28,192 nucleotides of DNA from IMG/VR virus record IMGVR_UViG_3300045051_001126, positions 1 through 28,192 of that record. One strand, written 5' to 3'. The position numbers and the translations under genes are program-made. Below the pieces are notes generated by a model. That model did not search any database, was not told the origin of the DNA, and saw nothing but the letters and a program-made list of their open reading frames with translations. Origin of the DNA: a virus. Positions 9,099 to 23,755 of the stretch are shown here, piece by piece (the first letter of the stretch is position 1; each line of letters starts with the position of its first letter).

Positions 9099-9107
9099 GG
9101 CGTTCTC

Positions 9108-9528: not shown

Positions 9529-9884
9529 CCCGCCTTGACCTCCTCGCAGCTGATCCCCGCGAACTTGAGCTGTACCTCACCCTTGCTCAACGCACAGGGC
9601 TCTGTGAGAAATGCACCCGAGACGTAGTAGATCGTGCCGGTATCACACTCGAAGGTGATGGTGCTATCCGTAATGGCGTTGAGGGCCGTCAGGTCGGTAC
9701 TTTTGGTATGGGCAACGGTACATTCAACCATTGGCTCCACCACCTCCTCTGAATACCCGACAACACCGTTGTCGCCCTTCTTGGCCTCGCGCTTGACCCC
9801 CCCCGTGTTGAGGGTCGCACCCGGCAGGCTGTCGATGAGCTGCCCATCCACCCGGATACTGATTTTGCCTGTAACCTGAGCCAT
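9525..9884 (-). CDS. M: Tail tube protein, Mu gpM (gp40)-like
   Basis: A 119-residue protein. It opens MAQVTGKISIRVDGQLIDSL, then PGATLNTGGVKRE and a middle with VVEPMVECTVAH and DLTALNAITDSTITFECDTG, the usual small tube protein of Mu-type contractile tails that forms stacked hexameric rings inside the sheath. It begins 12 bases after the sheath stop with a strong G-rich ribosome-binding site (AAGGGGGGG), suited to the very high amounts needed. Its end overlaps the chaperone start by four bases. Confidence 0.9.
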   Translation of the reverse strand: MAQVTGKISIRVDGQLIDSLPGATLNTGGVKREAKKGDNGVVGYSEEVVEPMVECTVAHTKSTDLTALNAITDSTITFECDTGTIYYVSGAFLTEPCALSKGEVQLKFAGISCEEVKAG

Positions 9885-9896
9885 GAAATCCCCCCC

Positions 9897-11351
9897 TTAA
9901 AGCTTGAAGCTCAGTCGAACGCCAAACACGCGGAACTGGTTGACCAGGTTGGGGGGCAGCACCGCATCGACCCGATTGGGGTCATCCGCATTTCGCTCCA
10001 CCCTCAGCTCGGCTTTGAACGCGGCCATGTCCTCGACCAGGCCCCGTTGCTCCATCTCACTGAACAGGCCAATGAGCTCGGCCCGGATTACCCGAGGGGT
10101 CACCACCGCCTGACCAGGGGCGATGCGTGTCCCGTCGTTGGCCAGCTTGTGCCGCGGAAATCGCAACGCAATTCGGGTGCGCACCGCAAACCGAATGTAG
10201 GCCAGGGTTCTCATCGTCTCAATGTCGAGGTAGCTGGTGTCGGCAGTGCCCAACCCATTCACCTGGTAGGTGGTGATCAGACGTTCGATGAGGCAGCGTC
10301 CGTTCGCGTCCACCACAAAGGTGCTGATGCCGTCGCGCAGCAGCAGGTCCCGCTCATCCCGGGTGAACTGAGCAGAGCGCGCAGGGGCCAGCACACCCTT
10401 GAGCCACAGCGTCTGCCGAGGTCGCGCTGGATCAGCCTCCCCAGCGTCCAGGGCTGCTACCACGGCTGCCACCTCCCAGGGCGGTGTCGGAGACTGAGAG
10501 CCCATAATGCTCAGAAACTGGCTGTTCCGAGCATCTCCCAGGGTCAGCAGGTTGGAGTAGGTGTCGCGGGCGGCTGCAAAGGCCTGCCCTTCCTTCTGCA
10601 CCGTGGGGCCAAAACGGCGCTCGAGCTCGGCTTCCAGAGCTGTCAGGTTGGTGTCGTCAATCCAGGCCGTCACAACGGTGTGGAACTGCTCATCGGCCAT
10701 CGCAGTGATGGCCGTGCTGAGCGATGGGTTGGTGGCACCAGAAGCCATGGCCGTGATGGTGACCGTGACACCCGCCGGGGTAAGCTGCCCGGGGTAGTAG
10801 TTCACCCGAATGTCGATGCTGTTGCCTGGCACGCCCTTATTGCGGGCAGTCAGGGTGACGGTGGAGCTGCTCACCGAAGCTGTCACCGGCAAATCCGTGA
10901 CTGCATTGACGGCGTCTGCCACGTTCGACGCAATCGCTGTGGTGGCATCCCCACTCTCCACAGCCACCGGGATGTAACGACCAGCCACCAGCAGGTGAAT
11001 CGTGCCAGCGGAGGCACCTGATCCCCCGATCACGATTGTTCCTGTGGCGGCCACCCCAGAGCCATGGTCCGAGATGCCCACTGCCCACAGCTCCGCCGAC
11101 GTGTTGATCTGGCGAAAGGCAGCCACCATACGATGCGCCGTCGAGCCGCGGCCAAACAGACTCTCGGCCTGGTCGATGGATGTCAGCTTGTACAGGGTAT
11201 TGGAGGTGCCCAGCCCACTGCTGAGGCGCCCTCCCAAAATCAGCACACGGTGGGTTTCAGTCGGAAGCCCTTCCAGTGCGTTGCTGTTGTCCACTTCGAT
11301 GTAACTGCCCGGCGTTCTGATGTCAGTGGGCACATTGGTAAAGTCAATCAC
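9897..11351 (-). CDS. L: Contractile tail sheath protein, Mu gpL (gp39)-like
   Basis: A 484-residue sheath protein. The N-terminus IDFTNVPTDIRTPGSYIEVD is the standard extension that threads into neighbouring subunits. Other family sections are VLILGGRLSSGLG, AESLFGRGSTAHRMVAAF, GVPGNSIDIRVNYYPG in the outer domain and a conserved C-terminal part (DTSYLDIETMRTLAYIRF, ending NQFRVFGVRLSFKL). Its contraction drives the tube through the host envelope. It starts at GTG, overlapping the gp38-like stop as GTGA. Confidence 0.92.
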   Translation of the reverse strand: MIDFTNVPTDIRTPGSYIEVDNSNALEGLPTETHRVLILGGRLSSGLGTSNTLYKLTSIDQAESLFGRGSTAHRMVAAFRQINTSAELWAVGISDHGSGVAATGTIVIGGSGASAGTIHLLVAGRYIPVAVESGDATTAIASNVADAVNAVTDLPVTASVSSSTVTLTARNKGVPGNSIDIRVNYYPGQLTPAGVTVTITAMASGATNPSLSTAITAMADEQFHTVVTAWIDDTNLTALEAELERRFGPTVQKEGQAFAAARDTYSNLLTLGDARNSQFLSIMGSQSPTPPWEVAAVVAALDAGEADPARPRQTLWLKGVLAPARSAQFTRDERDLLLRDGISTFVVDANGRCLIERLITTYQVNGLGTADTSYLDIETMRTLAYIRFAVRTRIALRFPRHKLANDGTRIAPGQAVVTPRVIRAELIGLFSEMEQRGLVEDMAAFKAELRVERNADDPNRVDAVLPPNLVNQFRVFGVRLSFKL

Positions 11352-11518
11352 TCAGATACCTCCTGACCATCGGTCTGTACCGTCACGTCGCCAGCCTCGA
11401 CGCGGCGGAGCCAGTACGAATCAAGCACCACAAATGCCCCCTCAGGGGTGAGCACCTTGTTGGAATTCGGAATTCTCACCCGGCGACCCTCGACGGGTTT
11501 GACCAGCACACGCTTCAT
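11348..11518 (-). CDS. Small Mu gp38-like protein (DUF2635 family)
   Basis: A 56-residue gene below the usual ORF cut-off. It starts MKRVLVKPVEGRRVRIPNSN and ends VTVQTDGQEVSE, with FVVLDSYWLRRVEAGD in between. The pattern of VKP near the start, an RxP motif and a W-x-R-R in the second half fits DUF2635. Its ATG overlaps the gp37-like stop (ATGA) and its TGA overlaps the sheath GTG (GTGA), so it is coupled on both sides. The position between gp37 and sheath is that of Mu gene 38, whose function is not established. Confidence 0.85.
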   Translation of the reverse strand: MKRVLVKPVEGRRVRIPNSNKVLTPEGAFVVLDSYWLRRVEAGDVTVQTDGQEVSE

Positions 11519-12069
11519 TCTGTCTCCATCGTCACAGTGTCCTCGGCTGCGGCCTCATTGCCGGGCAGCTCATACACCGCGTCAAAGGTTTCGAAGTCGC
11601 CCAGGCCATCTGGCAGGGACACCGGCCCCACCGTGGTTGGGATCTGCCACACAGCTGCATAGATGGAGAGGTTCTTGCGCTCGAAGGCCCCCTCCCAGAG
11701 GTTCTCCACAGCCAGCAGCTCAGCAGTGCCGTGGTCTTCAATGGTGAGGCCCTGGATGGCACTGATGGCAGCCTGCACCAGCGCCAGGGTACCAAGCTTT
11801 TTGCCGTCGCCCTCGCGCCTGGCGACCTGCCCGATGGCGTTGGTATTCACCAGATACACTGCGTACTGCCCGTTGATCACGGCCTCATGGGTCTGCACTC
11901 CACGCAGGCCGCGCAGAAAAACCACATAGGCTGCTGGAGCCTCCCGCTCCACCCGCGCCACAATTTCCTCGGACCAGCCACCCGGAAGGCTCTCAATCTT
12001 TCTGACATACGATCCGAGCGCGTTTTGCAGCGCAGCAATCAGGGCGGCTTCAACCGCCTCAATGCCCAT
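11515..12069 (-). CDS. Mu gp37-like protein (DUF1834 family), head-tail completion
   Basis: A 184-residue protein. Family features are an N-terminal helix (MGIEAVEAALIAALQN), RKIESLPGGW, a YVVFLRGLRG strand, and INGQYAVYLVNTNAIGQVAR followed by LGTLALVQAAISAIQGL. DUF1834/gp37 proteins occur between the gp36-type adaptor and the sheath in Mu relatives and are thought to help complete or terminate the tail. Start and stop are fused with the flanking genes (TAATG upstream, ATGA downstream). The acidic C-terminal tail (EAAAEDTVTMETE) is longer than I would expect. Confidence 0.8.
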   Translation of the reverse strand: MGIEAVEAALIAALQNALGSYVRKIESLPGGWSEEIVARVEREAPAAYVVFLRGLRGVQTHEAVINGQYAVYLVNTNAIGQVARREGDGKKLGTLALVQAAISAIQGLTIEDHGTAELLAVENLWEGAFERKNLSIYAAVWQIPTTVGPVSLPDGLGDFETFDAVYELPGNEAAAEDTVTMETE

Positions 12070-12893
12070 TAAAAGTCCGCCAGCGTAGTGGGGCTGAATA
12101 CCCGGGTGGCACCTTCCAGCACGATGATGTCTGCTGCGTTGGCGGCAGGCTCCTGTGCTGGTGTCAGACCCAGATCAAGCTTGCCCATGCTGACCCGCTC
12201 CAGCTGTTTCAGAGCCTGGTCGGCCTGCTCCTTGGCATAGTCGGGCGCGCCTGTGCGGTGCAAGGTGTAGCGCGCCAGGTCGCAGGCCCAGCGCACCACC
12301 GTGGCGGGGGCTGACTCGAGCGGCAGCAGATACCGTCCGCGCAGGTGGCCCTCGATGAGGGTGGTGGCGTCCTGCAGTGCGATGAGAATGGCATTGACCG
12401 CATTCTCTGTGGCGGCCTGCTCCTGCTCAGAATAGATCGTCATGTCCCCACCGGACACTGCGGTGGAGAGCATCTCCCCGGTCACCACCCGCGGCAGGTT
12501 GGGATCCCCCAGCTCCGCCATGTGGTCGGCCCCGAACCGATTTACCATGTCCAGCACGCTGGCATAGCTGCCGGTGGTGCTGACGTTCACGCCTGCGGTG
12601 TAGGTAAAGACCTGCTCGACATCGAGCAGCTCGGTTTTGACCCGGCTGCTGGAGCTCTGAAAAACGGCCAGGTACTGACCCGCCTCAGCGAGCTGCACCT
12701 CCGCGGTGTACCATGCCAGCTGACCTTCGACCTTCTCCAGATCGAGTGGGTAGGTCAGCGCAACACCGTCTGCGTCAAGCCCCACCTCTTCACCCTGGAG
12801 TGTCTGGATCTGCAGAAGCTGCCAGGTGTCAGTGTCCAGACCGCCGCTTTGGGTCAGCACCAGGCGCTTGGAAATGCCGGCAGAGAGTTTCAT
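12069..12893 (-). CDS. Mu gp36-like adaptor (DUF1320) with an extra N-terminal domain
   Basis: A 274-residue protein made of two parts. From about residue 108 (SYASVLDMVNRFGADHMAEL) to about 235 it follows DUF1320/gp36: a run of helices with AVNAILIALQDATTLIEGHL, RGRYLLPLESAPATVVRWAC and DLARYTLHRTG. This family is usually a head-tail adaptor of about 140 residues. The first 100 or so residues (MKLSAGISKRLVLTQSGG, then LEKVEGQLAWYTAEVQLAEA) look like a separate beta-rich domain fused in front. The join has no stop or frame break. It couples to both neighbours by ATGA and TAATG overlaps. Confidence 0.75.
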   Translation of the reverse strand: MKLSAGISKRLVLTQSGGLDTDTWQLLQIQTLQGEEVGLDADGVALTYPLDLEKVEGQLAWYTAEVQLAEAGQYLAVFQSSSSRVKTELLDVEQVFTYTAGVNVSTTGSYASVLDMVNRFGADHMAELGDPNLPRVVTGEMLSTAVSGGDMTIYSEQEQAATENAVNAILIALQDATTLIEGHLRGRYLLPLESAPATVVRWACDLARYTLHRTGAPDYAKEQADQALKQLERVSMGKLDLGLTPAQEPAANAADIIVLEGATRVFSPTTLADF

Positions 12894-13507
12894 ACCACCT
12901 CCACCTGAATCGGCTCTGGCCAGAGGATCTCGTACTTACGGGGACTTGAGGCAGACGTGAAGACTGGATAGGTGCTGGTGCGGGTGGTATTGGTCAGCAG
13001 GTCCACCTCGATTTCCAGATCACAGGCCTGGTCCAGCAGGTCGGTATAGAGCACCGGCACAGTGCCCCGGTACCATCCTTCAGGTGTCACTCGCTCCACG
13101 GTGGCGCCGGTGGCAATATCCAGCTCACCGGGGGCGCAGAAGATCTTGAACTGGGTGCCCGAGAGGACCGTGTCCACCTGGTAGACGCCTCCCAGGCCGC
13201 TTGCCTGGGAGCGTACATACTGCCCCCCCGCAAGACCGGAGGTAGACGCCACCGTGATGGTGTAGGTCGCCTTACCACTCGTACCAGTGCCAGCAGACGG
13301 TGTACCGGCCACCGTCCCACTCCAGGGCGTACTGGTGGCCGTCGCCTCCTCGCGCATGATGGCGCTGGTGGGCGTCAGAGAACTGCTGGTGCCATCCGGA
13401 CGGGTCAGAGTGGCGCGCGTAATAACACAGGCCCCGTGTTTGCCGTACTCACTCGCGTTGGCGGTCGCTGAAATGAGCACCGTGCCATTCGGCTTGATTG
13501 GTGGCAT
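12890..13507 (-). CDS. Hypothetical structural protein between capsid and adaptor genes
   Basis: A 205-residue protein rich in Thr, Ser, Gly and Val (TSTPWSGTVAGTPSAGTG, then SGKATYTITVASTSGLAGGQ), pointing to an all-beta fold. The C-terminal ends SPRKYEILWPEPIQVEVV. No family recognised. It follows the capsid gene pair after a 123-base gap and precedes the gp36-like gene, so a head-decoration or connector role is likely. The start ATG has GAGGGGAG upstream. The C-terminal beta region may be of the same kind as the extra N-terminal domain of the next protein, but I see no clear sequence match. Confidence 0.65.
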   Translation of the reverse strand: MPPIKPNGTVLISATANASEYGKHGACVITRATLTRPDGTSSSLTPTSAIMREEATATSTPWSGTVAGTPSAGTGTSGKATYTITVASTSGLAGGQYVRSQASGLGGVYQVDTVLSGTQFKIFCAPGELDIATGATVERVTPEGWYRGTVPVLYTDLLDQACDLEIEVDLLTNTTRTSTYPVFTSASSPRKYEILWPEPIQVEVV

Positions 13508-13538
13508 CGCCAGTTCTCCCCTCTTTCATAAAATGGTT

Positions 13539-13554
13539 TTCCCACGCGTGGGAA
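13539..13554. promoter_or_regulatory. Perfect 16-bp palindrome in the capsid-to-adaptor gap
   Basis: TTCCCACGCGTGGGAA equals its own reverse complement. It lies in the only gap of more than 100 bases within the late operon, upstream of the gene starting at 13507. The downstream GGCGTGGGAAAGG (13555 onward) repeats one arm. It is the same length as the three early-region palindromes but has a different core. A protein-binding dyad or part of the RNA structure of this gap is possible. Confidence 0.5.
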
Positions 13555-13565
13555 GGCGTGGGAAA

Positions 13566-13596
13566 GGCCGAGAGACCTCTTACGCGACTCTCGGCC
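13566..13596 (-). terminator. Hairpin after the capsid pair, possible partial terminator
   Basis: GGCCGAGAG (13566-13574) and CTCTCGGCC (13588-13596) form a perfect 9-bp stem with a 13-base loop. On the minus strand it lies 35 bases past the 13631 stop and is followed by TTTCCC. The T run is short, so read-through is likely. A partial terminator here would keep capsid transcript higher than the connector and tail genes behind it. Confidence 0.45.
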
Positions 13597-13630
13597 CTGC
13601 CAAACGCTCCTGAGGCCTCTCAGAAGCCTT

Positions 13631-13999
13631 CTACTTTTTCGGCGGTTCCACGGTTTTGGTGTCCAGTGCGACATCCCCGCCATCCGGAGAAAGCCCACCC
13701 TTGTCCGGTGCGCCTGCTGTGGGCGTACCCACGTCCGGGCCCGTCGGAGGTGGGGGCGGAGCCGCTTGGCTGGTTTTGGTGGCCAGAGCGGCCTCCAGCG
13801 CCTCGCGCAGAGGCTGCACCTGCATGTCGATGTGTTGCTGGGCATCCCGGATCTTCTCGAGGCTGACTTCCTCGACGCGATCAAGGCGGCTCAAACGCTC
13901 CGCCTGCTTTGGCTCGAGCTCAATCAGCTCGCCCAGGTGGTAGCGCTTGTGATTGTGAAGGATGGTGCCCTTCGCCAGAAAGTGCTTCAAACGGCTCAT
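13631..13999 (-). CDS. Small protein coupled to the capsid gene, proline-rich C-terminus
   Basis: A 122-residue protein. The first 40 residues (MSRLKHFLAKGTILHNHKRY, then HLGELIELEPKQAERL) look like a small beta domain, as in short proteins found directly after capsid genes. A helix of about 50 residues follows, then a Pro/Gly/Ala-rich flexible tail (AAPPPPPTGPDVGTPTAG). The true start is the ATG that overlaps the capsid stop as ATGA; the longer frame to 14224 is inside the capsid gene. Function is unknown; the context suggests head completion or decoration. Confidence 0.75.
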   Translation of the reverse strand: MSRLKHFLAKGTILHNHKRYHLGELIELEPKQAERLSRLDRVEEVSLEKIRDAQQHIDMQVQPLREALEAALATKTSQAAPPPPPTGPDVGTPTAGAPDKGGLSPDGGDVALDTKTVEPPKK

Positions 14000-14928
14000 A
14001 CGCACGCCTCCAGGTAATACCCCAGCTCGGTATAGGTGACGAGCTCCCGAACGGCCTCGCCAACACGCACATCCTGACCACCGCTCATGCCAATGTCCTT
14101 GTCCGGCAGAGCGCCCGCCACCCGGCCGCTGCGCAGCTCGGCGGTGAAACCCCAGGTGGGACGCACATCCTTCACGCTGGTCATCTGGGTATTGAGATGC
14201 AGCAGCGCACAGTTGCCACCCCAAACCCGGCTGTAGCTGGCCGACTGGCCCTTCTTTGCCGAGTTCAGGAACCCCTGACCCACCAGCACACGGTCCAGCT
14301 CGAAAAGCCGGGCGAGCTGCTCGCGGGTGGCCACACCCGACGTGCCGGAGTTACCCAGCGCCGCTGAGACAATCTTGGGGTGCTGAACCAGCTTCGAATA
14401 CGCCGCCTGCCCGATGACCATGGTGTTCGGGCGCATCAGGGGGGTATTCAGCCCATCCATGATCTGAGCGATCGGGTCGGAGCTCGTGTCATCCCACTGG
14501 TCGGTACCGCTCAGGGTGACCTGATTGGCGGCGGGGTAGTTGGCGGTGTTGAACACCGTACCCGCTACCCGCACCTCGCGGTCGAGCTGCACCAGGTGGG
14601 AAAGGCCCTGCACCGCGTTGGCCACAGGGTCCATGCCAGAAACACGACCCTCCTCGATGTCGCTGTTGGGGACACCATCCGCCAGACCAAAGTCCTCGAC
14701 CGAGCCCTCAGTCTCCGTCGCATTGAACTCCACCTGGTTGGGCTTTGACTTTCGCCCCACCCGGGTGTTGGGTACGGTGAAATTCTGGGCGGTGTTCCAC
14801 TTAAGGTATTTGAACGTGCGACCTGCGACCGGTACCCGCATGAGCACCTGGTCGGAGATCAGCGCAGTGTTTGAGACACCCATGAAAATGGCCAGCAGCG
14901 CTGGCGTACTGGGAAACGGACGAGCCAC
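13996..14928 (-). CDS. Major capsid protein
   Basis: A 310-residue capsid protein of a family I know from other tailed phages and prophages: VLMRVPVAGRTFKYLKW, then FTVPNTRVGRKSKPNQVEF, FGLADGVPNSDIEEG, the NTMVIGQAAYSKLVQHPKIV helix-strand and a C-terminal DIGMSGGQDVRVGEAVRELV. It does not resemble Mu's own capsid protein T, so the capsid gene seems to come from another lineage than the Mu-type tail genes. It begins with GTG preceded by GAGGAGG and is coupled to the next gene by ATGA. Confidence 0.88.
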   Translation of the reverse strand: MARPFPSTPALLAIFMGVSNTALISDQVLMRVPVAGRTFKYLKWNTAQNFTVPNTRVGRKSKPNQVEFNATETEGSVEDFGLADGVPNSDIEEGRVSGMDPVANAVQGLSHLVQLDREVRVAGTVFNTANYPAANQVTLSGTDQWDDTSSDPIAQIMDGLNTPLMRPNTMVIGQAAYSKLVQHPKIVSAALGNSGTSGVATREQLARLFELDRVLVGQGFLNSAKKGQSASYSRVWGGNCALLHLNTQMTSVKDVRPTWGFTAELRSGRVAGALPDKDIGMSGGQDVRVGEAVRELVTYTELGYYLEACV

Positions 14929-14959
14929 GGAACCTCCTCAGCGCCCGCAGGCGCACACA

Positions 14960-15328
14960 TCAGCCCTGAACGCTACCCTGGCTGAGCAGCACATCGATGA
15001 CGTCTCCAGACACACCCGACACCAGCGCGACCCCCACCACCCGATTGTTTGCACCGGAGCTGGGAGCGGCGGCCACCCCCTTTCCGTTTGCGTCGGCAGT
15101 GATGAGCGCACCGCGGGTGACAGTGCCACCCAGCACAATCTCCGCCATACCGGTGAGGGTGACGTCGAGACGCTCCCCGCTGGCGGCGCCGTTGGGATCG
15201 CTGACGCCAATCAGAGCGTCAGTTGCAGCAGACGCCTGCACCACGGTGGCGTCGGCGCTGAGCTTCACGATGCGGTTGCCTGCCACAGCTGCACCGACAT
15301 CAAAATTCGCAATCACACCCGGAATCAT
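14960..15328 (-). CDS. Capsid decoration (cement) protein, DUF2190 family
   Basis: A 122-residue protein rich in Ala, Val, Gly and Thr (AAVAGNRIVKLSADATVVQA, then DPNGAASGERLDVTLTGMAE and GGTVTRGALITADANGKGV), the typical DUF2190 pattern of repeated beta strands. Such proteins bind the outside of the capsid at three-fold points. It lies between protease I and capsid, the common order, and its ATG overlaps the stop of I as ATGA. The longer 90-residue frame on the same strand ending 14938 is a shadow. Confidence 0.85.
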   Translation of the reverse strand: MIPGVIANFDVGAAVAGNRIVKLSADATVVQASAATDALIGVSDPNGAASGERLDVTLTGMAEIVLGGTVTRGALITADANGKGVAAAPSSGANNRVVGVALVSGVSGDVIDVLLSQGSVQG

Positions 15329-15774
15329 GCGTTCTCCTTGGTAATCGCGGTCACAGCGTCAGCAATGCTGAGCACCTCACCCCGCTTTGCAGCCTTTTCC
15401 TGAAACTCCAGCGCACGAGCCAGAATCTCGCGCGGGTCATCGGTGGGCTGAGCTGGGGTAGGCCCGGTGGCCAGCTCCCGGAACTCCACCACCTTGGGGA
15501 GGCCCTTCAGCAGGTCCTTAAAGGCCTGCTGCAGATTCTGCTGCACCACCTTGCCACCCTCTGAAAATTCCAGCGTGGAGCCGGTGGGCAGCTCGGCCAG
15601 CACCCCCACAATCACCTTCTGGTGCGCGGGGATGAGCTTACCGTCCCGCACCAGACCCTCGGCAAAGTCACTGTGGCCCTTCAGGCTGGCAGCACGCTCC
15701 AGCTCCTTCAGGGCCCTCTCCCGCTGCTCCACCAGCCGCTCACGCGCAGCCAGGGCTTCCAGCTCCTTCGTCAT
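15325..15774 (-). CDS. Z: Internal scaffold protein Z, in-frame within I
   Basis: An ATG at 15774 inside gene I (MTKELEALAARERLVEQRER) has AAGGAG exactly six bases upstream (15781-15786 on the plus strand), a stronger signal than that of I itself. Starting there gives a 149-residue protein identical to the helical C-terminus of I. In phage Mu an in-frame internal start in I makes scaffold Z in excess over protease, so this site reproduces the same arrangement. The ribosome-binding site is seen; its use is inferred. Confidence 0.65.
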   Translation of the reverse strand: MTKELEALAARERLVEQRERALKELERAASLKGHSDFAEGLVRDGKLIPAHQKVIVGVLAELPTGSTLEFSEGGKVVQQNLQQAFKDLLKGLPKVVEFRELATGPTPAQPTDDPREILARALEFQEKAAKRGEVLSIADAVTAITKENA

Positions 15775-16410
15775 CGCACTCTCCTTCTCTGTATAAGAGG
15801 ACATGTCAGACCCTGTGGGCTGAGCTGCCCCCAGCTCCGCCTTGACCTCCTCGCGAATGGCTGCATCGCGCAGACTCTCAATCTGCCACTCCGGCAAAAC
15901 CTCATCCGCCACCTGCTGCCCCTTGTCACCAATCAGCCAGTTCTTCAGACGCCGCCACAGACCGGCGTTTGTCTCCGCCTCCCAGCTGAACTCCACCACA
16001 CCCTCAGCGCTGCTCGAAAACTCGATGGGGCGCAGTCCCTTTACTGCAGGGGGAGCCGCGCCGAGAAATCCGACGTGACGCAGATAATAGGAGCCGGGCT
16101 TGGGGTTGGCGGGACTGTCGGGGAGGTAAAAGGAGGCGCTAACCTTCTTGTAGCGCCCAGCCTCCACCAGCTCGGCAAAGGCGGGGTCCACCTGATATGG
16201 CTCGGCCTGCAAACCGCTGTCAGCCCTCAGGCGCTTCACCCAGCCATAGGCCGGGCCGTTGGTGGACGGATGACCCACCACCAGAGGGGCCTCGTGCAGG
16301 CTGGGGTCGTAGCTGGCGGCGATGTCCTGCAGGACCGCTTCGCTGAAGTCAATGGCCTGGCCGTGGGAGTCCACCTGGCGGCCTGGCTTGAAGATGTGGA
16401 TTCGCTTCAC
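15325..16410 (-). CDS. I: Capsid maturation protease / scaffold, Mu gpI-like
   Basis: A 361-residue protein. The conserved protease part covers about residues 1-150: MKRIHIFKPGRQVDSHGQAI, then HEAPLVVGHPSTNGPAYGWV, YKKVSASFYLPDSPANPKPG and LRHVGFLGAAPPAVKGL. The C-terminal half is helical and charged (TKELEALAARERLVEQRERA), as expected of a scaffold. I place the start at GTG 16410 because the family begins at this Lys-Arg-Ile-His-Ile-Phe and AGGAG lies six bases upstream. A longer in-frame ORF to ATG 16500 adds an unconserved leader with no good ribosome-binding site. It is the first gene of the minus-strand late block. In Mu it would be preceded by terminase, portal, gp30 and G genes, none of which is here. 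Confidence 0.88.
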   Translation of the reverse strand: MKRIHIFKPGRQVDSHGQAIDFSEAVLQDIAASYDPSLHEAPLVVGHPSTNGPAYGWVKRLRADSGLQAEPYQVDPAFAELVEAGRYKKVSASFYLPDSPANPKPGSYYLRHVGFLGAAPPAVKGLRPIEFSSSAEGVVEFSWEAETNAGLWRRLKNWLIGDKGQQVADEVLPEWQIESLRDAAIREEVKAELGAAQPTGSDMSSYTEKESAMTKELEALAARERLVEQRERALKELERAASLKGHSDFAEGLVRDGKLIPAHQKVIVGVLAELPTGSTLEFSEGGKVVQQNLQQAFKDLLKGLPKVVEFRELATGPTPAQPTDDPREILARALEFQEKAAKRGEVLSIADAVTAITKENA

Positions 16411-16577
16411 TGCGCACTCCTGAAAAAGGGGTACGCGCTGGAGGATGAACAGCCCTGAGATGGGTGTAGTAGGAGGCCAGCGCGTCACGATGTCCATCAT
16501 GCCGCTGGCTGTGTAGGGTTTCGATTAACGTGGATTAGAAAGACGCGGAGAGATTGGAGAAGGCAGGAAAGGCTGGC

Positions 16578-16661
16578 TTAAGCGCCAAAAAGCAGACGAA
16601 GCAGGGTTCCGATTTCCCAGAACTGAAACCCATAGTTGACCGGCGTTTGCATGGCATCCAT
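16578..16661 (-). CDS. Possible small protein in the leader of the late operon
   Basis: A 27-residue frame starts at ATG 16661 with GAGG five bases upstream and ends at TAA. The sequence MDAMQTPVNYGFQFW, then EIGTLLRLLFGA, has a hydrophobic, possibly membrane-bound end. The same frame is open upstream to a TTG at 16703 with GAG before it, which would give 41 residues. It is the only coding signal I see in the 337 bases between repressor (ends 16748) and gene I (starts 16410). The rest of that gap must hold the late promoter, but I could not pick one with confidence. Confidence 0.4.
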   Translation of the reverse strand: MDAMQTPVNYGFQFWEIGTLLRLLFGA

Positions 16662-16747
16662 TTGAACCTCGTGAAGTAAGGGGTTTACGGGCGACGCTCC
16701 CAACCGCTCAGCCGAGGCAGTTCAACCACTGTTCTACTCCCGTGAAA

Positions 16748-17698
16748 TCATTCCTCTCCCACTTTATGCTTGATAACTGCGTTAGCGTCAAGACTCACCC
16801 CCAGCACCAGATGAACAGGCTGACCATTGTCATCTTGCAGCTCAAGGCAGATTCCGTGCACTGCCTCACGAATGCGAGCGACGAACTCTTTTTCCGAGCC
16901 AGCCTTTACCCGACCAGCCGCGTCAAGTACATAACCACGCCCGTCAGCTCGTTCCGCCACTGGCACAATCTCCAGCACCAGCCGCTTCACAGCATCCTTA
17001 GTGGCCTGACTGATATCGCCGGTTTCGCGCGCCGCTAAAGCCGGATTCTTTGTCGTCAGCTCATATCCTTTTGGCCCCTGTGACACCAGGCCTCTGTGGA
17101 CAAGTACCGCCAAGTCTGAGCGGAGATCCATTTCGGTACAGGGCGTACCGGAGTTCGCCACCCCCACCAACACATCCCGCCAGGAAGCTACCCCTCGCCG
17201 ATCCCTCAGCACCTTGATGATGGTCCAAGAAAGCTCCTGTTGTCCACGCCGAGCCTTGAGATATAGGTCCTGAAGACCAAGCTCGGCAAACATCGCGCGC
17301 TCGGCTGTCTCGGTCGTTGGTGGCAAATCTACCTTTTCGGAGTCTTCCAAGTAGGAAGCCTCCTGAATAGGTGATTCGCAGTCTGCTGTATCTACGGCAA
17401 CACCCTGGAATCGAATCACCCTACCCTTATCAACCCACATCCTGCCCTCAGGGTCGTCAACCCTGTGCCTATCCCCAATTCCCGTTAAAAGCCAATCACT
17501 TGTTACACCCAGTGCTACTGAGAGTCGCAACAGCGCCAATCCACCTGGAAACTGCTCACCTGAGGTGTATTGCTGAAGGGTCCTATACGACATGCCGGAC
17601 GATTCTGCAAACTCCTTCATCGACAGCCCAAGACGCTTAATTGACGTTCTTAGTCTCTCAGAAAACTCTCTTTTTAGGTCAATTTCCTCATTTTCCAT
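16748..17698 (-). CDS. Phage repressor with N-terminal HTH
   Basis: A 316-residue protein. Residues about 12-73 are a Cro/CI-type helix-turn-helix (RLRTSIKRLGLSMKEFAESS, then GMSYRTLQQYTSGEQFPGG and SVALGVTSDWLLTG). The remaining 240 residues have no LexA-type self-cleavage domain that I can recognise; they include a region that may be a second winged helix (DLAVLVHRGLVSQGPKGYEL). The gene is divergent from the early operon with 72 bases between, the position of repressor c in Mu-like phages. I prefer ATG 17698 to TTG 17713; neither has a clear ribosome-binding site, so low or leaderless translation is possible. Confidence 0.8.
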   Translation of the reverse strand: MENEEIDLKREFSERLRTSIKRLGLSMKEFAESSGMSYRTLQQYTSGEQFPGGLALLRLSVALGVTSDWLLTGIGDRHRVDDPEGRMWVDKGRVIRFQGVAVDTADCESPIQEASYLEDSEKVDLPPTTETAERAMFAELGLQDLYLKARRGQQELSWTIIKVLRDRRGVASWRDVLVGVANSGTPCTEMDLRSDLAVLVHRGLVSQGPKGYELTTKNPALAARETGDISQATKDAVKRLVLEIVPVAERADGRGYVLDAAGRVKAGSEKEFVARIREAVHGICLELQDDNGQPVHLVLGVSLDANAVIKHKVGEE

Positions 17699-17727
17699 TT
17701 GATAGACACCCAATCATGTGTAATTAT
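17699..17727 (+). promoter_or_regulatory. Early promoter with overlapping dyad
   Basis: TTGATA (17699-17704) and AATTAT (17722-17727) are 17 bases apart, five and four matches to the sigma-70 hexamers, directed at the early operon that starts at 17771. The spacer holds a short inverted repeat (ACAC, eight bases, GTGT), a candidate operator for the divergent repressor. On the other strand TTGACC near 17738 could belong to the repressor's own promoter, without a good -10. Confidence 0.5.
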
Positions 17728-17770: not shown

Positions 17771-18019
17771 ATGAAAATCGAACCAGGTTACCAACTCGCA
17801 AGAGCTGTAATCGCCGGATTTCGCCTACAAGGCACGACGATGAATCACTGGTGCAAGCAAAACGGCATTACACAACAGAACGCTAATCAGGCAATTCGTG
17901 GAAGTTGGAACGGTCCCAAGGCAAAACAACTACTTCTTGCAATTGTGCAGGCTTCTGGAGCCGGAAACCTCTTGAACGTTTCTGAACAGACGGGAAAAGG
18001 CGAGGTAGTTGAAACATGA
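17771..18019 (+). CDS. Early HTH protein, paralogue 1 (HTH module only)
   Basis: An 82-residue protein and the first early gene, in the position of ner in Mu. It is essentially a single helix-turn-helix module: LARAVIAGFRLQGTTMNHWC, then GITQQNANQAIRGSWNGPKA and IVQASGAGNLL. The same module recurs in the next two genes. It is similar in outline to the small gp16-type HTH proteins of the phage BcepMu group (an AGF/W-C helix, a QAIxG recognition helix, then GPxA), but I cannot prove membership. Its stop overlaps the next start as ATGA. The likely role is tuning of the lysis-lysogeny switch. Confidence 0.75.
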   Translation: MKIEPGYQLARAVIAGFRLQGTTMNHWCKQNGITQQNANQAIRGSWNGPKAKQLLLAIVQASGAGNLLNVSEQTGKGEVVET

Positions 18020-18345
18020 GACAGGCTTTTCGCGATGGCAGCCCTGAACAATTTTTGGCCGCTCTGCTGGCCTTGCCGGTATTCATCCAGACCGAGATGG
18101 AGGCCCGTCGACCAATAGAACCAGGTCCACGGCTGGCGGATGCGGTGATGGCCGGTTTTCGCCTACGCCGAACCAGTTTGTATAAGTGGTGTGCAAGCAG
18201 CGGCTTGCGCCAGCAAAACGCACACCAAATTCTGACAGGTCGCTGGACTGGGCCAACGGCAAAGCGACACCTCGAAGCCATGGTTGAGGCCTCAGGTGCG
18301 CGGGCCCTTTTGACACAGTCGAATGAGGAAGGAAGCAAGGAATGA
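18016..18345 (+). CDS. Early HTH protein, paralogue 2 (N-module plus HTH module)
   Basis: A 109-residue protein. Residues 10-25 (PEQFLAALLALPVFIQTE) form a short hydrophobic helix shared with the two following genes. Residues about 38-100 are the HTH module shared with the flanking paralogues: LADAVMAGFRLRRTSLYKWC, SGLRQQNAHQILTGRWTGPT, then AKRHLEAMVEASGARALL. Closest to paralogue 3, with which it shares GRWTGPTAKRHL exactly. ATGA overlaps on both sides imply coupled translation. The N-module may mediate pairing among the family members; this is inference. Confidence 0.75.
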   Translation: MRQAFRDGSPEQFLAALLALPVFIQTEMEARRPIEPGPRLADAVMAGFRLRRTSLYKWCASSGLRQQNAHQILTGRWTGPTAKRHLEAMVEASGARALLTQSNEEGSKE

Positions 18346-18680
18346 GACCACAACTGGGCAAATGTGAAGAGTTTCTGGCCGCCATTTTGGCTATGCCGAC
18401 GCTGTTGACTCAGATTGACTTTGATCACACAGGGCCCAGTAGAGTGGAAATTCTGCCCTCAAAGAAACTGGCGAATGCTGTAAAGGCTGGCTTTCGCCTT
18501 CGAAACACCAGTCTCTACAAATGGTGTGCGGAATCTGGCATTCGCCATCAGGGCGCCTCTCAGATTCTCTCTGGCAGATGGACTGGCCCAACAGCCAAAC
18601 GACACCTGCAAGCAATGATCGAGGCGTCTGGAGCTGCAGCGCTCATGGGTTCAGACGAAGCTGGAGGCGGTCAGAAATGA
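18342..18680 (+). CDS. Early HTH protein, paralogue 3 (N-module plus HTH module)
   Basis: A 112-residue protein with the same two-part plan as its upstream neighbour: CEEFLAAILAMPTLLTQ at residues 8-24, then LANAVKAGFRLRNTSLYKWC, SGIRHQGASQILSGRWTGPT and AKRHLQAMIEASGAAALM. The spacer between the modules differs in length and sequence from paralogue 2. Divergence among the copies is high enough that they are old duplicates, or were acquired separately, rather than recent ones. Coupled by ATGA at both ends. Confidence 0.75.
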   Translation: MRPQLGKCEEFLAAILAMPTLLTQIDFDHTGPSRVEILPSKKLANAVKAGFRLRNTSLYKWCAESGIRHQGASQILSGRWTGPTAKRHLQAMIEASGAAALMGSDEAGGGQK

Positions 18681-18994
18681 AGCCACCATCGGGATCAACA
18701 GAGGAGTTTTTGGCGGCATTGCTGGCCCTGCCAAACATAACCGCCTGGCGTATCGGCAAGACCCGGCAGGTGCTGCATGGTGGGCGACTACACTGGAAGT
18801 CTGACATTTACCAGATCCTGCACTGGCCTGCTGCGAGGTTTGAGCGGGTGCGCATTGCGGAGGTGCGCCAGGAGGCAGCTAGTTTGGTGGTCGTGGATGG
18901 AGACGGAAAGTGTTGGCTTGCACTGCGGATGACGGCGTGGGGACTGGCGGATTCGAGAAGAATTCTCCCCGGGGAGAAGGGGCTTATTGGTTGA
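18677..18994 (+). CDS. Early protein with the shared N-module but a different C-terminus
   Basis: A 105-residue protein. Residues 8-20 (TEEFLAALLALPNITAWR) match the N-module of paralogues 2 and 3. The HTH module is absent; instead there is a basic segment (GKTRQVLHGGRLHWKSD) and a beta-looking stretch (ARFERVRIAEVRQEAASLVV). The start is the ATG overlapping the stop of paralogue 3; an in-frame extension upstream lies inside that gene. No known family. The C-terminal tail (ILPGEKGLIG) is encoded by the first of the three palindromes that follow. Confidence 0.65.
   Translation: MKPPSGSTEEFLAALLALPNITAWRIGKTRQVLHGGRLHWKSDIYQILHWPAARFERVRIAEVRQEAASLVVVDGDGKCWLALRMTAWGLADSRRILPGEKGLIG
18963..18978. 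promoter_or_regulatory. Palindrome 1, TTCTCCCCGGGGAGAA
   Basis: A perfect 16-bp palindrome with the core TCCCCGGGGA and flanks TTC/GAA. It overlaps the last codons of the gene ending at 18994. Symmetry stops exactly at 16 bp. It is the first of three such sites in 112 bp and a candidate operator for an early regulator. Confidence 0.7.
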
Positions 18995-19002
18995 CATATT
19001 CC

Positions 19003-19018
19003 GCGTCCCCGGGGACGC
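19003..19018. promoter_or_regulatory. Palindrome 2, GCGTCCCCGGGGACGC
   Basis: A perfect 16-bp palindrome with the same core TCCCCGGGGA and flanks GCG/CGC, centred 40 bp from the first. A consensus -35 hexamer TTGACA (18991-18996) lies between the two, but no -10 is seen at proper spacing, so a promoter is not claimed. Confidence 0.7.
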
Positions 19019-19058
19019 CTACTGAGAACAGCGGGGCAAACCGGAGTGACCGGAAGCA

Positions 19059-19074
19059 TTTTCCCCGGGGAAAA
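19059..19074. promoter_or_regulatory. Palindrome 3, TTTTCCCCGGGGAAAA
   Basis: A perfect 16-bp palindrome with the same core and flanks TTT/AAA, centred 56 bp from the second and 61 bp before the start codon of the next gene. As RNA it could fold only as a short hairpin with a tight loop, so a DNA-binding dyad seems likelier. The 140-base gap 18995-19134 holds palindromes 2 and 3 and no gene. Confidence 0.7.
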
Positions 19075-19134
19075 GAATTGAGAACGGTTTTCAGAATCTC
19101 GTAAGTGGCTGAAATATTAAGTGGAGGTTGAAGG

Positions 19135-19317
19135 ATGGACGTGAGACCGGGCACCAGGGTCACCTGGGGCGAGCTGATTATGCGTGACGGAAAGGCGGTG
19201 GTCATCAACCGCCTGGGCACTGTGGAGAGCGTGCTTGGCCATTACTGCCGGGTGCGCCAGGATCACAACTCACGCGTGCCGGAGCTTCCGGTGCGGATTT
19301 TGAGGAGGGTGGGATGA
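19135..19317 (+). CDS. Small early hypothetical protein
   Basis: A 60-residue protein after the palindrome block. The ribosome-binding site AGTGGAGG lies about seven bases before the ATG, followed by MDVRPGTRVTWGELIMRDGK and SVLGHYCRVRQDHNSR. It looks like a small beta barrel. The PGxxVxW motif at its start recurs as PGAIVSW in the C-terminal domain of the double-Ner protein two genes on, so both may carry the same small domain. No function known. Its stop overlaps the next start (ATGA). Confidence 0.65.
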   Translation: MDVRPGTRVTWGELIMRDGKAVVINRLGTVESVLGHYCRVRQDHNSRVPELPVRILRRVG

Positions 19318-19784
19318 AGAAGCTGACGATCTACCTGGCGAGTAGCTGGAAAAACCAGCGGTATCCCGAGGTATTGCAGGCACTGCGAGCCGCGGGCCAT
19401 GACGTCTACGACTTCCGGCACCAGGGCTTTTCGTGGTCTTCCGTGGATCCCGGCTGGCGCCAGTGGAGCCCGGCTCAGTTTTGCGATGCGCTGAAAACAG
19501 ACACAGCCAAGAAGGGCTTTGCCACCGACATGAATGCCCTGATCGAGGCCGACGTAGTGGTCCTGCTCATGCCATGCGGGCGGTCTGCTCATCTGGAGCT
19601 GGGGTTTGCCTGCGGTGCTGGGAAGGTAGCGCTGGTGTTGCAGGAGGAACCAGCGGAGGCCGAGCTGATGTATGGGATGACTGATGGGATCTGTACTTCG
19701 TTGGCTGATCTGCTCCTTGTTTTGGGCCTGACTGATGTCGCCAATAGCAATTTTGACAAGGAGGATATGTCATGCGAAGGTTGA
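19314..19784 (+). CDS. Nucleoside 2-deoxyribosyltransferase-like protein
   Basis: A 156-residue protein. The N-terminus MKKLTIYLASSWKNQRYPEV fits the family's first strand and loop; next come AAGHDVYDFRHQ, KGFATDMNALIEADVVVLLM and the signature PCGRSAHLELGFACGAGK, ending with EAELMYGMTDGI. Enzymes of this fold break or transfer the bond between base and deoxyribose, or remove bases from nucleotides. Phage members are usually annotated from sequence alone. In an early operon it may alter the nucleotide pool or counter a nucleotide-based host defence; this is speculation. It overlaps the following start by 13 bases. Confidence 0.75.
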   Translation: MKKLTIYLASSWKNQRYPEVLQALRAAGHDVYDFRHQGFSWSSVDPGWRQWSPAQFCDALKTDTAKKGFATDMNALIEADVVVLLMPCGRSAHLELGFACGAGKVALVLQEEPAEAELMYGMTDGICTSLADLLLVLGLTDVANSNFDKEDMSCEG

Positions 19785-20431
19785 AAGTAGCCCCCACGCC
19801 GCTGCCACCCCCCAACTGTACCACCCAGATGCTGCGCTCCTGGGTGCGGGCAACACTGGCGGAACGCAACAGCTCGCTGGAGCACATCGCGGATCAGCTC
19901 GGTGTGAAGCTCAGCTCTCTGTGTGGAGCCTTCAACAACGGCTGCCCTCGATATCAGCGGGCCATAGCCGATGCCTGCGGCGTCTCACCCGACGCTCTCT
20001 GGCCACAGAATCACGCCACCACCCCACCGGGTACGCCGATTGATGAAGCCGCCCGATTGGCACCTATACCCACCCACCCCCTTGGTCGTGAGCACTGGAT
20101 TCGCTATCAGCTTGCCATGCGGCTTGTCACGGTGGCCAGCCTGGCAAAGAAGCTGGGGATCAGCCCGGAAGCAGCGCAGACCGCCTTTCGTCGTTCCTAC
20201 CCACGGGTGGAAGCGGTCATTGCCGAGGCCATCGGCATGAACCCCTCGGAACTCTGGCCCGAGCGCTACCAGCCAAACGACCAGTGGCAGCCGGGCGCCA
20301 TTGTCAGCTGGGAAGAAGGTACCCGGCGACTGACGGGCACGATTGCGAAGCGTGAGCGCAACGAGCTGACGGTGCGCAGCGCGGACGCCACCTACTACCT
20401 CACCACCCGTGATGTGCTGGAGGTGCGATGA
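19772..20431 (+). CDS. Regulator with two Ner-like HTH domains
   Basis: A 219-residue protein. Residues about 22-82 (LRSWVRATLAERNSSLEHIA, then GCPRYQRAIADACGVSPDAL and WPQ) and about 105-168 (RYQLAMRLVTVASLAKKLGI, then SYPRVEAVIAEAIGMNPSEL and WPERY) each follow the Ner/Nlp pattern: HTH, proline, a helix with IAxAxGxxPxxLWP. Mu Ner is a single such domain that shuts down early transcription and c. Here two copies are fused and followed by a beta-looking C-terminal domain (QPGAIVSWEEGTRRLTGT). ATG 19772 has AAGGAGG well placed. I infer a DNA-binding negative regulator that could bind two half-sites as one chain. Confidence 0.8.
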   Translation: MRRLKVAPTPLPPPNCTTQMLRSWVRATLAERNSSLEHIADQLGVKLSSLCGAFNNGCPRYQRAIADACGVSPDALWPQNHATTPPGTPIDEAARLAPIPTHPLGREHWIRYQLAMRLVTVASLAKKLGISPEAAQTAFRRSYPRVEAVIAEAIGMNPSELWPERYQPNDQWQPGAIVSWEEGTRRLTGTIAKRERNELTVRSADATYYLTTRDVLEVR

Positions 20432-20727
20432 AGCTTCATAGCGTCCACCAGGAGCACATTCATGTCCGGACTCTGGCGGAGGCCCGCCAGGCTGGCCCGG
20501 GTTTGGAGCTGCGCAGCTCAAAGCTGCCCCCCCGTATTCCGGGGTTTCCCTACGAAGTCTGCCAGCAGTGCGGCTGCATCGTCTTCTTCGAGGGTGATGA
20601 GCTGACCGCGGAAGCAGCTGGCCACTACGACCGCATCTATAAGGAGTGGACCCCTGGCACCCTGCGTTTTGCGGGGTTGCTGGAGAGGGCACGAGCACGG
20701 ACTTTCAGTCGAGGAGATGTGCGATGA
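20428..20727 (+). CDS. Early hypothetical protein with a CxxC motif
   Basis: A 99-residue protein. The centre has PGFPYEVCQQCGCIVFFEGD, where VCQQCGC could be half of a zinc knuckle, but no second Cys pair is present; His residues near the start (SVHQEHIHVRT) might complete a site. No family recognised. It sits between the Ner-like regulator and the 278-residue unknown with ATGA overlaps on both sides, so it belongs to the same coupled operon. Confidence 0.6.
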   Translation: MKLHSVHQEHIHVRTLAEARQAGPGLELRSSKLPPRIPGFPYEVCQQCGCIVFFEGDELTAEAAGHYDRIYKEWTPGTLRFAGLLERARARTFSRGDVR

Positions 20728-21560
20728 CCACAGAGAATATTCAGCCCGTTGACGAAGCTCAGGAGCTGTTCATGAAGATTGAGAACTTCGAATTCAGTTA
20801 CTCACTGGGAAGCCTGCCCTGGACTCCAGCTGACCCAATCGACTCCGAGGCTGCATTGCTGAAGTGGCTGTGCGGCTGGGCTTTTGAAAATGGGTCCTAT
20901 ATGCTTCGGATACTGGCCTATCATATCGTTGGAGATCGACAGCTCTGGATTGTGGTGGACGACGCGCCATCCTACTGGGTGAGCACCAAGACCATCGACG
21001 GTAAGTTGCACATTGTTGTTCACGTGCCCCACAATGCAGTTCTCAATGTAAGCCTGCAATTGATCCGAGCAGTGCACGATCTGAATGGCGATGTGGGTGA
21101 TATCGATGAGGTGAACGGCAGCCTTCAGATGGAGTTTCTTCTGGCTGAAGACTGTTTTGTCAACAGCGTTGAGCTCGAGAATTTTGTCCGGGCCTATTGG
21201 CCGAACCATCGTGGCCTGGATCATTGGTGTTATGAACAGGCAATTCTTGCCTACACTCTGTGCCCTAACTGCCTCACGCCATTTGCTCGGAATCGTCATA
21301 CTGAAGGAACCGAGTGTGGACATCATGACAATCTCCAGAACGTCTCGCTGCGCATGGCTCTGCACAAGGCTGTGTCTCAGGCGTTCAACGTGCCCACTGG
21401 AGCTGCTGAGCTGGTCTCGCGTTTCTCCGCCGTTGCCGACTCAAACCCAATTGGTGCTCTGAACCTCATCCTGAATGGGCTGGATTATTTGCCGAAGGAC
21501 AGCTGGGATTTGATTCTGGCAGCTGTCGACCCAACGCCGAATTCCCCCACCGCAAGCTGA
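20724..21560 (+). CDS. Unrecognised 278-residue early protein
   Basis: The start is ATG 20724, overlapping the preceding stop as ATGA; the longer frame upstream is inside the previous gene. The first 170 residues alternate strands and helices (MLRILAYHIVGDRQLWIVVD, DGKLHIVVHVPHNAVLNVS) in a way that recalls small alpha/beta domains such as YbjN, which I cannot confirm. A CPNC at about residue 190 with later Cys and His (TEGTECGHHDN) suggests one zinc site. The C-terminus is helical. Its base composition looks a little less GC-rich than its neighbours, hinting at separate acquisition. It is followed by a 94-base gap, the first break in the coupling since the 19135 gene. Confidence 0.6.
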   Translation: MTTENIQPVDEAQELFMKIENFEFSYSLGSLPWTPADPIDSEAALLKWLCGWAFENGSYMLRILAYHIVGDRQLWIVVDDAPSYWVSTKTIDGKLHIVVHVPHNAVLNVSLQLIRAVHDLNGDVGDIDEVNGSLQMEFLLAEDCFVNSVELENFVRAYWPNHRGLDHWCYEQAILAYTLCPNCLTPFARNRHTEGTECGHHDNLQNVSLRMALHKAVSQAFNVPTGAAELVSRFSAVADSNPIGALNLILNGLDYLPKDSWDLILAAVDPTPNSPTAS

Positions 21561-21654
21561 CCTGACCCACAGACACAACAACACCGCGAAATGGCAACGG
21601 CGCGCATGGGGCGCTCTGTTGATGGCCCGCGGTGTATCCGGAGGAGGTACGAGG

Positions 21655-22347
21655 ATGAGACGCCGACTGAACCCGCTGAACACCCTGCTGGTAACGGTCA
21701 TCGAGGAGGTAGTAGCGCCGCTGGTGGCGGAGATGGGGGAGCTGGACTTGGCGGAGAACACCCTGCGCTCTGCCACCTGTCAGCTGCTGCTGAACCGCTT
21801 CTGGAATCTACAGGCGGTGGGCAAACACCTGAATCGCCCGGCCCATACGGTGGCCCGCTACTTCGAAGGTAGGCTGTCGGAGCCGGGTGAACACCTGGCC
21901 GCCGGGGCGCTGCAGGCGGTGGTAAGCCGCCAGAACCTGACGGATGAGCAGGCACTGGAGCTGATGGCCCGCCTGCTGCCTGTCAACCAGTCCCGCAGTG
22001 ACCTTTACGATCTGATTCAGCTCTGGATTCAGTCCGGTGCGCTGGTCAAGACGACCCACGAATGCGAACGTTTTCACCGCACTCTGCTGTCGGGCATGCC
22101 TTACCGACAGCCCGGTGCCAATACCACATCCCTGATTCGCCTGCTCCGCCGGGTACTCGTAGAGTCCCTTCACGACGAGCCTCGGCTGCTACGCCTTACA
22201 GGCTTGCTCACCGTAGAAGCTCAGGACCTGCTGCTGGCAGAGGTCCGAGACTTTGCCGCCAAACGCTTCGCCGAGTTGCTGGCGGAGTGTGACGGCAATC
22301 CCAACGCAGAAATCCGCACTGTTGCGGTAGTCGCAGGGCGCGAATAG
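21655..22347 (+). CDS. Early hypothetical protein with a probable HTH
   Basis: A 230-residue, mostly helical protein. The start chosen is MRRRLNPLNT because GGAGGAGG lies eight bases upstream; an in-frame ATG at 21619 lacks a ribosome-binding site. Residues about 48-73 (NRFWNLQAVGKHLNRPAHTV, then ARYFEG) fit a helix-turn-helix with a following RYFEG hairpin. The rest is Leu-rich helices with no signature. No known family. It lies two genes before the transposase and may take part in regulating or organising transposition; this rests on position alone. Confidence 0.6.
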   Translation: MRRRLNPLNTLLVTVIEEVVAPLVAEMGELDLAENTLRSATCQLLLNRFWNLQAVGKHLNRPAHTVARYFEGRLSEPGEHLAAGALQAVVSRQNLTDEQALELMARLLPVNQSRSDLYDLIQLWIQSGALVKTTHECERFHRTLLSGMPYRQPGANTTSLIRLLRRVLVESLHDEPRLLRLTGLLTVEAQDLLLAEVRDFAAKRFAELLAECDGNPNAEIRTVAVVAGRE

Positions 22348-22381
22348 ACCCCTTTAACCCCCTGTTCTATTGGAGAGATCA

Positions 22382-23755
22382 ATGGATCCCGTTGAAAACA
22401 GTCTGATGGAGTTTGTGAGAGATGCCCGCATTCCGGTGAGCCTCTCGGAAATCCAGGATCACTTCCGCGCCCGGAGGGTTCGCACCAGCCGGACCAATAC
22501 GCTGGAGCTGCTGGAGAACCTGGTACAGGATGGCGCGCTGGTGGTGCAGGGCACCATCGGCTCTGACTCGGAGCTGTACAGCCTGCCCGCTCCCACCCCC
22601 ATGCAGGTGCCCGAATGGCAGGAGCCTGCCTCAGAAGAGGCTTCCCCTCGCACCATGGCGGACTTCATTGAGGAAGCGCCCGCCGCCACACCATCCGCCC
22701 CCCTGCCCACCACCGATGTGTTCGACATGGTGCCGACGGGCGAGCAGATCCTGCTTCCGGAGCTTCCAGAGGAGGCGCTGCCCCTTGAAGAGGCTTTCAA
22801 GGCTGTCAACCAGGTGGGCGCAATTGCCAACGAGCTGGGCATCGAGCTGCCTGAGTTCAACATGGCCAACACCCACGTGCTGATCCGTCAGTCCGTCCAA
22901 CGCAGCTTCCAGGAGTGGCTGCGCACGGGCGCGCTGCTCTACCAGGCCCGCCTCTACACTTCCAGGGCAGAATTCGCCGAGTGGGTGGCGCGCTGCGGCA
23001 TCCCCATGTCGGAGCGATCTATTCAAAAGGCCATCTCTGGATTCCGCGCCATTCAGGAGATTCCCGAGTGTCGCAAGCTGGCCTCCGGAATGAGCAGCAT
23101 CAAAAAGTTCCAGGTGGTGCAGCGTGTGCTGACCGTACCCGGGGCGCTCGAAGTCTACCGCAGCACCGGCAAGATTCTCGACATGACCCCTGCCGAGCTG
23201 GATTCAGCTTCCAAGACCACACTCGAGGCCCTCGAAAAGGAGATGCGGCGCAAGGGCGAGGAGGCCTCCGCCAAGATTGCTGCCCTCGAAACGGCGGTGG
23301 CCGCCAAGGATGAGGAGCTGGGCAAGGTCCATCGGGAGCTGTCTCTGCGGACCAATCCGGAGCTGTCGGAAGCAGCCCTCAGCAAGGCCTTTCTCGCCGA
23401 GATCGGTCAGCTCATTGATGCCGCCTACCCACGCCTCGCCCAGCTGCAGGTCGGACGTCGAACCGACCTGAACTCACTCCAGCCCACTGCCATCAGCCGC
23501 GGATACGTGGCCCTGATCGGTCTGTCCAAGACTCTGAGTCTGGTGCTTCGCGAGTTTGAGGCCCGCTGGGGCAAGCAGGTCCCCGAGCTGCTGCTGGACG
23601 AGGACGGTCAGATGCGCATGCCCGTCACTCGCCAGGAGCTGCGCATTCTGGCGCGTGACGCGCAGGAGGCGGACATTGGCGGGCAGGCGGCGCTCAAGGG
23701 CCAGCAGGTGCTGGTGTTCCGCCGGGATGAACAGGTCGCAGAGATCGCTGACTGA
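22382..23755 (+). CDS. Early DNA-binding-like protein with winged helix and coiled coil
   Basis: A 457-residue protein. Residues 1-65 look like a winged helix (SLSEIQDHFRARRVRTSRTN, then LELLENLVQDGALVVQGT). A Pro/Glu-rich linker follows to about 115. The middle (SFQEWLRTGALLYQARLYTS, RAEFAEWVARCGIPMSERSI, then QKAISGFRAIQEI) recalls DUF3102-type phage/plasmid proteins, which contain an HTH. Next come a strong coiled coil (TTLEALEKEMRRKGEEASAK and onward) and a C-terminal helical domain. It is the gene immediately before the transposase. I suggest a DNA-binding accessory protein; ParB-like and enhancer-binding roles are both conceivable. The start is ATG 22382 with GGAGAG upstream, preferred to the TTG at 22370. 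Confidence 0.65.
   Translation: MDPVENSLMEFVRDARIPVSLSEIQDHFRARRVRTSRTNTLELLENLVQDGALVVQGTIGSDSELYSLPAPTPMQVPEWQEPASEEASPRTMADFIEEAPAATPSAPLPTTDVFDMVPTGEQILLPELPEEALPLEEAFKAVNQVGAIANELGIELPEFNMANTHVLIRQSVQRSFQEWLRTGALLYQARLYTSRAEFAEWVARCGIPMSERSIQKAISGFRAIQEIPECRKLASGMSSIKKFQVVQRVLTVPGALEVYRSTGKILDMTPAELDSASKTTLEALEKEMRRKGEEASAKIAALETAVAAKDEELGKVHRELSLRTNPELSEAALSKAFLAEIGQLIDAAYPRLAQLQVGRRTDLNSLQPTAISRGYVALIGLSKTLSLVLREFEARWGKQVPELLLDEDGQMRMPVTRQELRILARDAQEADIGGQAALKGQQVLVFRRDEQVAEIAD

Follow-up and report, generated by a model that had tools for sequence, protein, structure and literature searches.

Gene order is regarded as strongly conserved among transposable phages. In Mu, the repressor gene c and the early genes are followed by Mor, lysis, terminase, portal, gp30 and G, and the block that runs from the head protease gene I to the tail genes continues after G on the same strand. 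The Mu activator C acts on distinct late promoters, namely lys, I, P and mom (PMC4461284), and the junction of G and I accordingly also divides two transcription units. Phages of the B3/BcepMu type (Pseudomonas phage B3, Klebsiella KP12, Escherichia PhiKM, phiSHP3) have a divergent early operon and a B3-type transposase, and carry lysis-packaging genes in the space from c to I. In Burkholderia phage KS10 (NC_011216) and Curvibacter phage TJ1 (MH766655) the late region is cut before I, the packaging-lysis and I-tail halves lie on opposite strands flanking the c-early block, and the genome terminates on one side with gp30 (F) and on the other with the tail genes (PMC2628397). In these two phages the packaging-lysis half sits beside the repressor, the I-tail half comes after Mor, and G is found after the capsid gene. 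The divided capsid module of KS10 was called unique in 2008, without an explanation being given (PMC2628397).

The stretch of DNA analysed here (the window) is the entire 28,192 bp linear IMG/VR record IMGVR_UViG_3300045051_001126. By analogy with the longer relatives described below, it very probably represents about three-quarters of a transposable (Mu-like) phage whose late region is split, with the packaging half lying past position 28192. The window encodes both a DDE transposase A and the ATPase B, as expected of a transposable (Mu-like) phage, and also has Mu-type genes for the head protease I, the capsid and a contractile tail. Mu-type structural late genes occupy the minus strand from near 312 to 16,410, from the fibre region to protease I, and the plus strand carries early genes to the window end, among them transposase A, a DnaC-like gene, B and a GemA-like ORF. 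Scanning the whole window with HMMs derived from ten annotated phages gave no match to TerL, portal, gp30 or G, and no lysis genes were found in it either; a Pfam portal search also had no match in the window, but was discounted because its controls were equally silent. The preliminary description had stated that genes for terminase, portal, gp30, G and lysis are all lacking before protease I, that the minus-strand block starts at I and abuts the repressor, and that the plus-strand early operon reaches the window end. All of this was confirmed, with 337 non-coding bases between I and c and with the GemA-like ORF, within which the record stops, still open at base 28191. Because the contig is truncated, the absence of packaging genes is attributed to truncation first, and "missing" here means not in this fragment.

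The I-tail half thus adjoins c, the early genes are divergent, and zero packaging genes lie between them, an order referred to below as the mirror order. Like KS10 and TJ1, the window phage would have its late region cut before I and the two halves on either side of the c-early block, but in those phages it is the packaging-lysis half that lies beside the repressor and the I-tail half that follows Mor. In the window I adjoins c, and the c-Mor segment would be reversed relative to the late arms. The B3/BcepMu-type phages share with the window the divergent early operon, the B3-type transposase and homologous I and capsid proteins, but have lysis-packaging genes between c and I where the window has none.

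The late block is encoded entirely on the minus strand and consists of the fibre region, gp48, gp47/J, gp46, gp45, P, N, tape measure, tube, sheath, gp37 and gp36 (907–13507), the major capsid protein (13996–14928, phrog_1005), a head decoration/cement protein (14960–15328) and the head maturation protease/scaffold I (15325–16410, phrog_976, E 1.5e-120). Gene I starts with a GTG at 16410, which is preceded by the Shine-Dalgarno sequence AGGAG (CAGGAGTGCGCAGTG) and is also where homology to other I proteins begins. A small ORF reported previously at 16411–16500 proved to be no separate gene; it prolongs I in frame in the 5′ direction as far as an ATG at 16500. The HTH repressor c is located at 16748–17713 on the minus strand, and the non-coding interval between the two genes (16411–16747, minus strand) most plausibly forms the I-tail operon's leader together with its probable late promoter region. 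The same interval had been proposed as the scar of a rearrangement, an idea we reject since the interval is the leader of gene I; it held no repeat, RNA family, tRNA, mobile element or packaging remnant, and tRNA and Rfam searches gave no match. A candidate dyad (AACCCCTTACTTCACGAGGTT) is present at 16665–16685, though it is weak and its pattern was picked post hoc, and comparison with other late genes gave no common dyad.

The early operon, on the plus strand, opens with three tandem phrog_15281 paralogues at 17771–18680. Its first part (17771–23755) also includes a nucleoside deoxyribosyltransferase-like gene (phrog_12607, 19314–19784), an HTH_35/ner-like regulator and genes with no assigned function. 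Transposase A (23776–25530, phrog_310, B3 type) is 25–27% identical to its counterparts in B3-type phages. A gene for a zinc-finger and DnaC/IstB-like ATPase (25527–26543) is inserted between A and B, and a tblastn search of 50,697 phage records returned zero relatives of it. The transposition ATPase B (26540–27667) is followed by the GemA-like early gene (27664–28192), which is cut by the contig end and whose match (E 0.037) is below the Pfam cutoff; the position expected for Mor falls outside the record.

To locate the packaging half we looked to relatives of the window. It had been suggested that the packaging genes lie beyond 28192 and that the late operon is cut between G and I; comparing gene order with relatives showed exactly this in seven of them, and for the window phage itself it would hold by analogy. 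In these seven longer records with adjacent I and c, TerS, TerL, portal, gp30 and G come downstream of the early genes and are encoded on the other strand from I-tail. They are a 41.6 kb record without a Mor match (G002), a locus within a 3.46 Mb Rhodocyclaceae contig (G012), loci from Accumulibacter (G013), Gallionella (G014) and a gammaproteobacterium (G017), and two IMG/VR records, IMGVR 3300038829_000262 (G020, 39.2 kb) and the isolate record IMGVR 2883256034_000001 (G021, 37.9 kb). Every record of the window's order that is long enough to tell, bar G001 (discussed below), has its packaging half on the early strand, and G022 matches the order as far as the holin, where its contig ends. The sequence of c, early genes, Mor, lysis, terminase, portal, gp30 and G in the relatives is that of Mu; in Mu, however, I-tail follows G on the same strand, whereas in the window it is inverted and on the far side of c. 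In a further locus (L212) the packaging half is on a separate 7.1 kb contig, where common end motifs are suggestive at most.

The closest full-length tail relatives of the window are G020 and G021. In the orientation of the window, the left part of G020 reads Dam, tail, sheath, capsid, I and c, and the right part continues with ner, Gam, GemA, Mor, holin, endolysin, TerS, TerL, portal, gp30 and G to the record end. Identity between the window and G020 is 54% for the sheath, 48% for the capsid and 41% for I, and the sheath of G021 is 51% identical to that of the window. Both relatives have the same layout as the window and a syntenic late block, with late proteins ~26–54% identical, but their early modules are different: G021 has an A2-type transposase and none was recognised in G020. 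The spacing between I and c is also larger in the relatives (~1–2.5 kb) than in the window (337 bp). G013 has a 35-bp terminal inverted repeat (32/35) at its tail side and 85 bp past G, and G014 has shorter repeats of the same terminal motif at the corresponding places, indicating that these phages end directly past G. The records of G002 and G020 both terminate at the G stop codon. If the distances in the relatives are carried over, the right end of the window phage is predicted at 35.9–39.5 kb in window coordinates and its size at 35.6–39.2 kb, near the 37–39 kb given for transposable phages (PMC8705779).

In the split arrangement that we propose, the I-capsid-tail half would have a late promoter of its own in 16411–16747 and be read on the minus strand, pointing away from the repressor, and the lysis-TerS-TerL-portal-gp30-G half would follow GemA and Mor on the plus strand, past the window end. 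Both halves would presumably be activated by one Mor/C-type activator, so that the cut between G and I would coincide with a natural border between transcription units. For the window phage, we infer both this location of the packaging half and the single activator driving the two halves. Motifs in three other genomes support a putative co-activation of the two late halves. G020 has a 34-nt motif that occurs exactly twice at the threshold used, once upstream of I and once directly past Mor, before the holin gene. G014 carries a CGGAAA-TTTCCG dyad upstream of I and of the lysis genes as well as at two additional late sites, and in the KS10-type phage TJ1 a TTGGTGAA-TTCACCA dyad precedes both I and lysis and recurs at two other late sites. 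Border motifs common to both halves were not above background in G012, G013 and G017, and G021 showed no clear motif common to both halves, only short matches that were compared without shuffles.

The frequency of the mirror order was examined by classifying 160 IMG/VR loci (80 retrieved via I and 80 via A), 80 GTDB loci retrieved via I, and named phages. Order was called with the HMMs from ten annotated phages, in a sample biased toward relatives of the queries. The usual order, with G or another packaging gene upstream of I on the same strand, was seen in 143 of 171 classifiable I loci; another 18/171 had the KS10 order (early genes, then I), and in 10/171 I adjoins c with the early genes divergent, as in the window. 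These ten include the window and G001, and as the latter is a deletion, eight others remain. A scan with the window's sheath, whose better matches are 51–57% identical and reach the closest tail relatives, added four records of the same order (L294, L298, L302 and L310). The layout had been described as uncommon, yet it is no one-off, given its recurrence in eight further I loci and four records from the sheath survey. Exact peptide patterns of A, c and the capsid found no close relative in IMG/VR, that of A had no match in GTDB genomes, and no relative above ~60% identity was present in the collections searched. Two named phages with similar sheaths, Bordetella PBb002 and Paraburkholderia IPK, are not of the same kind; PBb002 was set aside because it is without an annotated Mu-like transposase, and IPK because the sheath alone was found. 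In L296 (G024), G lies on the opposite strand beside I (732–1279) with ~65 bp between the ORFs, one more variant of the G-I border, which could be an assembly edge.

The position of the window in trees of I and of the capsid is poorly resolved. In trees of I and of I plus capsid, the mirror labels require 8–9 changes, with starred branches forcing 4–5, although one of the tree analyses still counted G001 as mirror. By this number of changes, the mirror order has been gained or lost repeatedly. One way for it to arise is for the c-Mor cassette, and nothing else, of a KS10-type genome to be flipped, or swapped in the opposite orientation; this concerns origin, is compatible with the split layout proposed above, and we consider it possible but short of probable. 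A comparison of G014 (mirror) with G018 (KS10 type) favours it: their late arms are ~43–79% alike (TerL 74%, capsid 72%, portal 60%), while the c-Mor cassette has kept its gene order, is much more diverged (A 28%, Mor 28%, B 43%, c 51%), and lies reversed relative to the late arms. With one pair to judge from, a diverged, reversed cassette is easier to reconcile with exchange in the opposite orientation than with a simple inversion of recent date. That single pair would also accommodate change in either direction, and the mirror labels are scattered over the trees, so that origins differ among lineages. More doubtfully still, the c-Mor control cassette may be an exchangeable, orientation-reversible module between late arms that have their own late promoter copies, with inverted border copies that could enable a flip or swap and repeatedly yield both the KS10 layout and its mirror.

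A different explanation is that the window comes from a defective prophage, derived from a B3/BcepMu-type phage by deletion of the lysis-packaging segment between c and I and ending directly after Mor. Such loss is real in this phage group. G001 is a defective transposable prophage, which we first labelled as mirror and then reclassified as a deletion: on either side of its deletion it matches the contiguous phage G019 at ~88% identity, and an IS5-type transposase (DDE_Tnp_1_5) and an unrelated gene (L029, 8224–10050) replace the 10.4 kb lysis-packaging segment. A search of E. coli genomes for the G001 type gave no real match. Adjacency of I and c alone is no proof of a split late region, since G001 has it as well. 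The window itself, however, gives no positive sign of the simple loss that the preliminary description had allowed for. No mobile element or packaging remnant is found in 16411–16747, I retains its start codon and Shine-Dalgarno sequence, the reading frames of c and the late genes are uninterrupted, the phage would measure just ~28.5 kb, and G020 and G021 are intact. With one deletion set against seven intact cases, and both closest full-length tail relatives among the intact ones, we consider a deletion in the window improbable and a split late region the strongly favoured reading. An artificial join between I and the repressor, through an assembly chimera or two fused prophages, is very improbable, as the GC dip at 17–18 kb and the lack of packaging genes on the contig that could speak for it are outweighed by the recurrence of c-I adjacency across many assemblies, including the 3.46 Mb contig (G012) and the isolate record (G021), and by a join that is 337 bp of ordinary intergenic DNA without a repeat.

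Division of the late region is recurrent and takes two mirror forms, falling between units that have separate late promoters in Mu. That the cut between G and I lies at a border of separate promoters offers a simple reason why the split is tolerated. We found no description of the mirror form in the openly accessible literature. Tools that rely on terminase or on prophage boundaries may take one late half for a defective phage.

At the left end of the window, positions 1–310 (minus strand) are a flank of host DNA, with a GC content of 47.7% compared with ~61% in the phage, and carry a fragment of a DruE-like (Druantia defence) gene. The fragment matches PADLOC DruE3 (E 1e-9) at profile positions 1870–1951 of 2055, so that a Druantia-type defence gene appears to be disrupted by the phage close to the 3′ end of the gene. 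As low-GC host DNA extends to ~310, the tail-side terminus of the phage is placed near 300–312; of the two phage ends, this is the one that the record includes. The last phage gene is a small Cys-rich ORF (312–635, minus strand) with a 12-bp tandem repeat; it appears Com-like by eye, and family searches gave no match. Two tandem repeat arrays are present at this tail end, one of 12 bp units at 516–611, which falls within the small ORF, and one of 11 bp units at 647–851.
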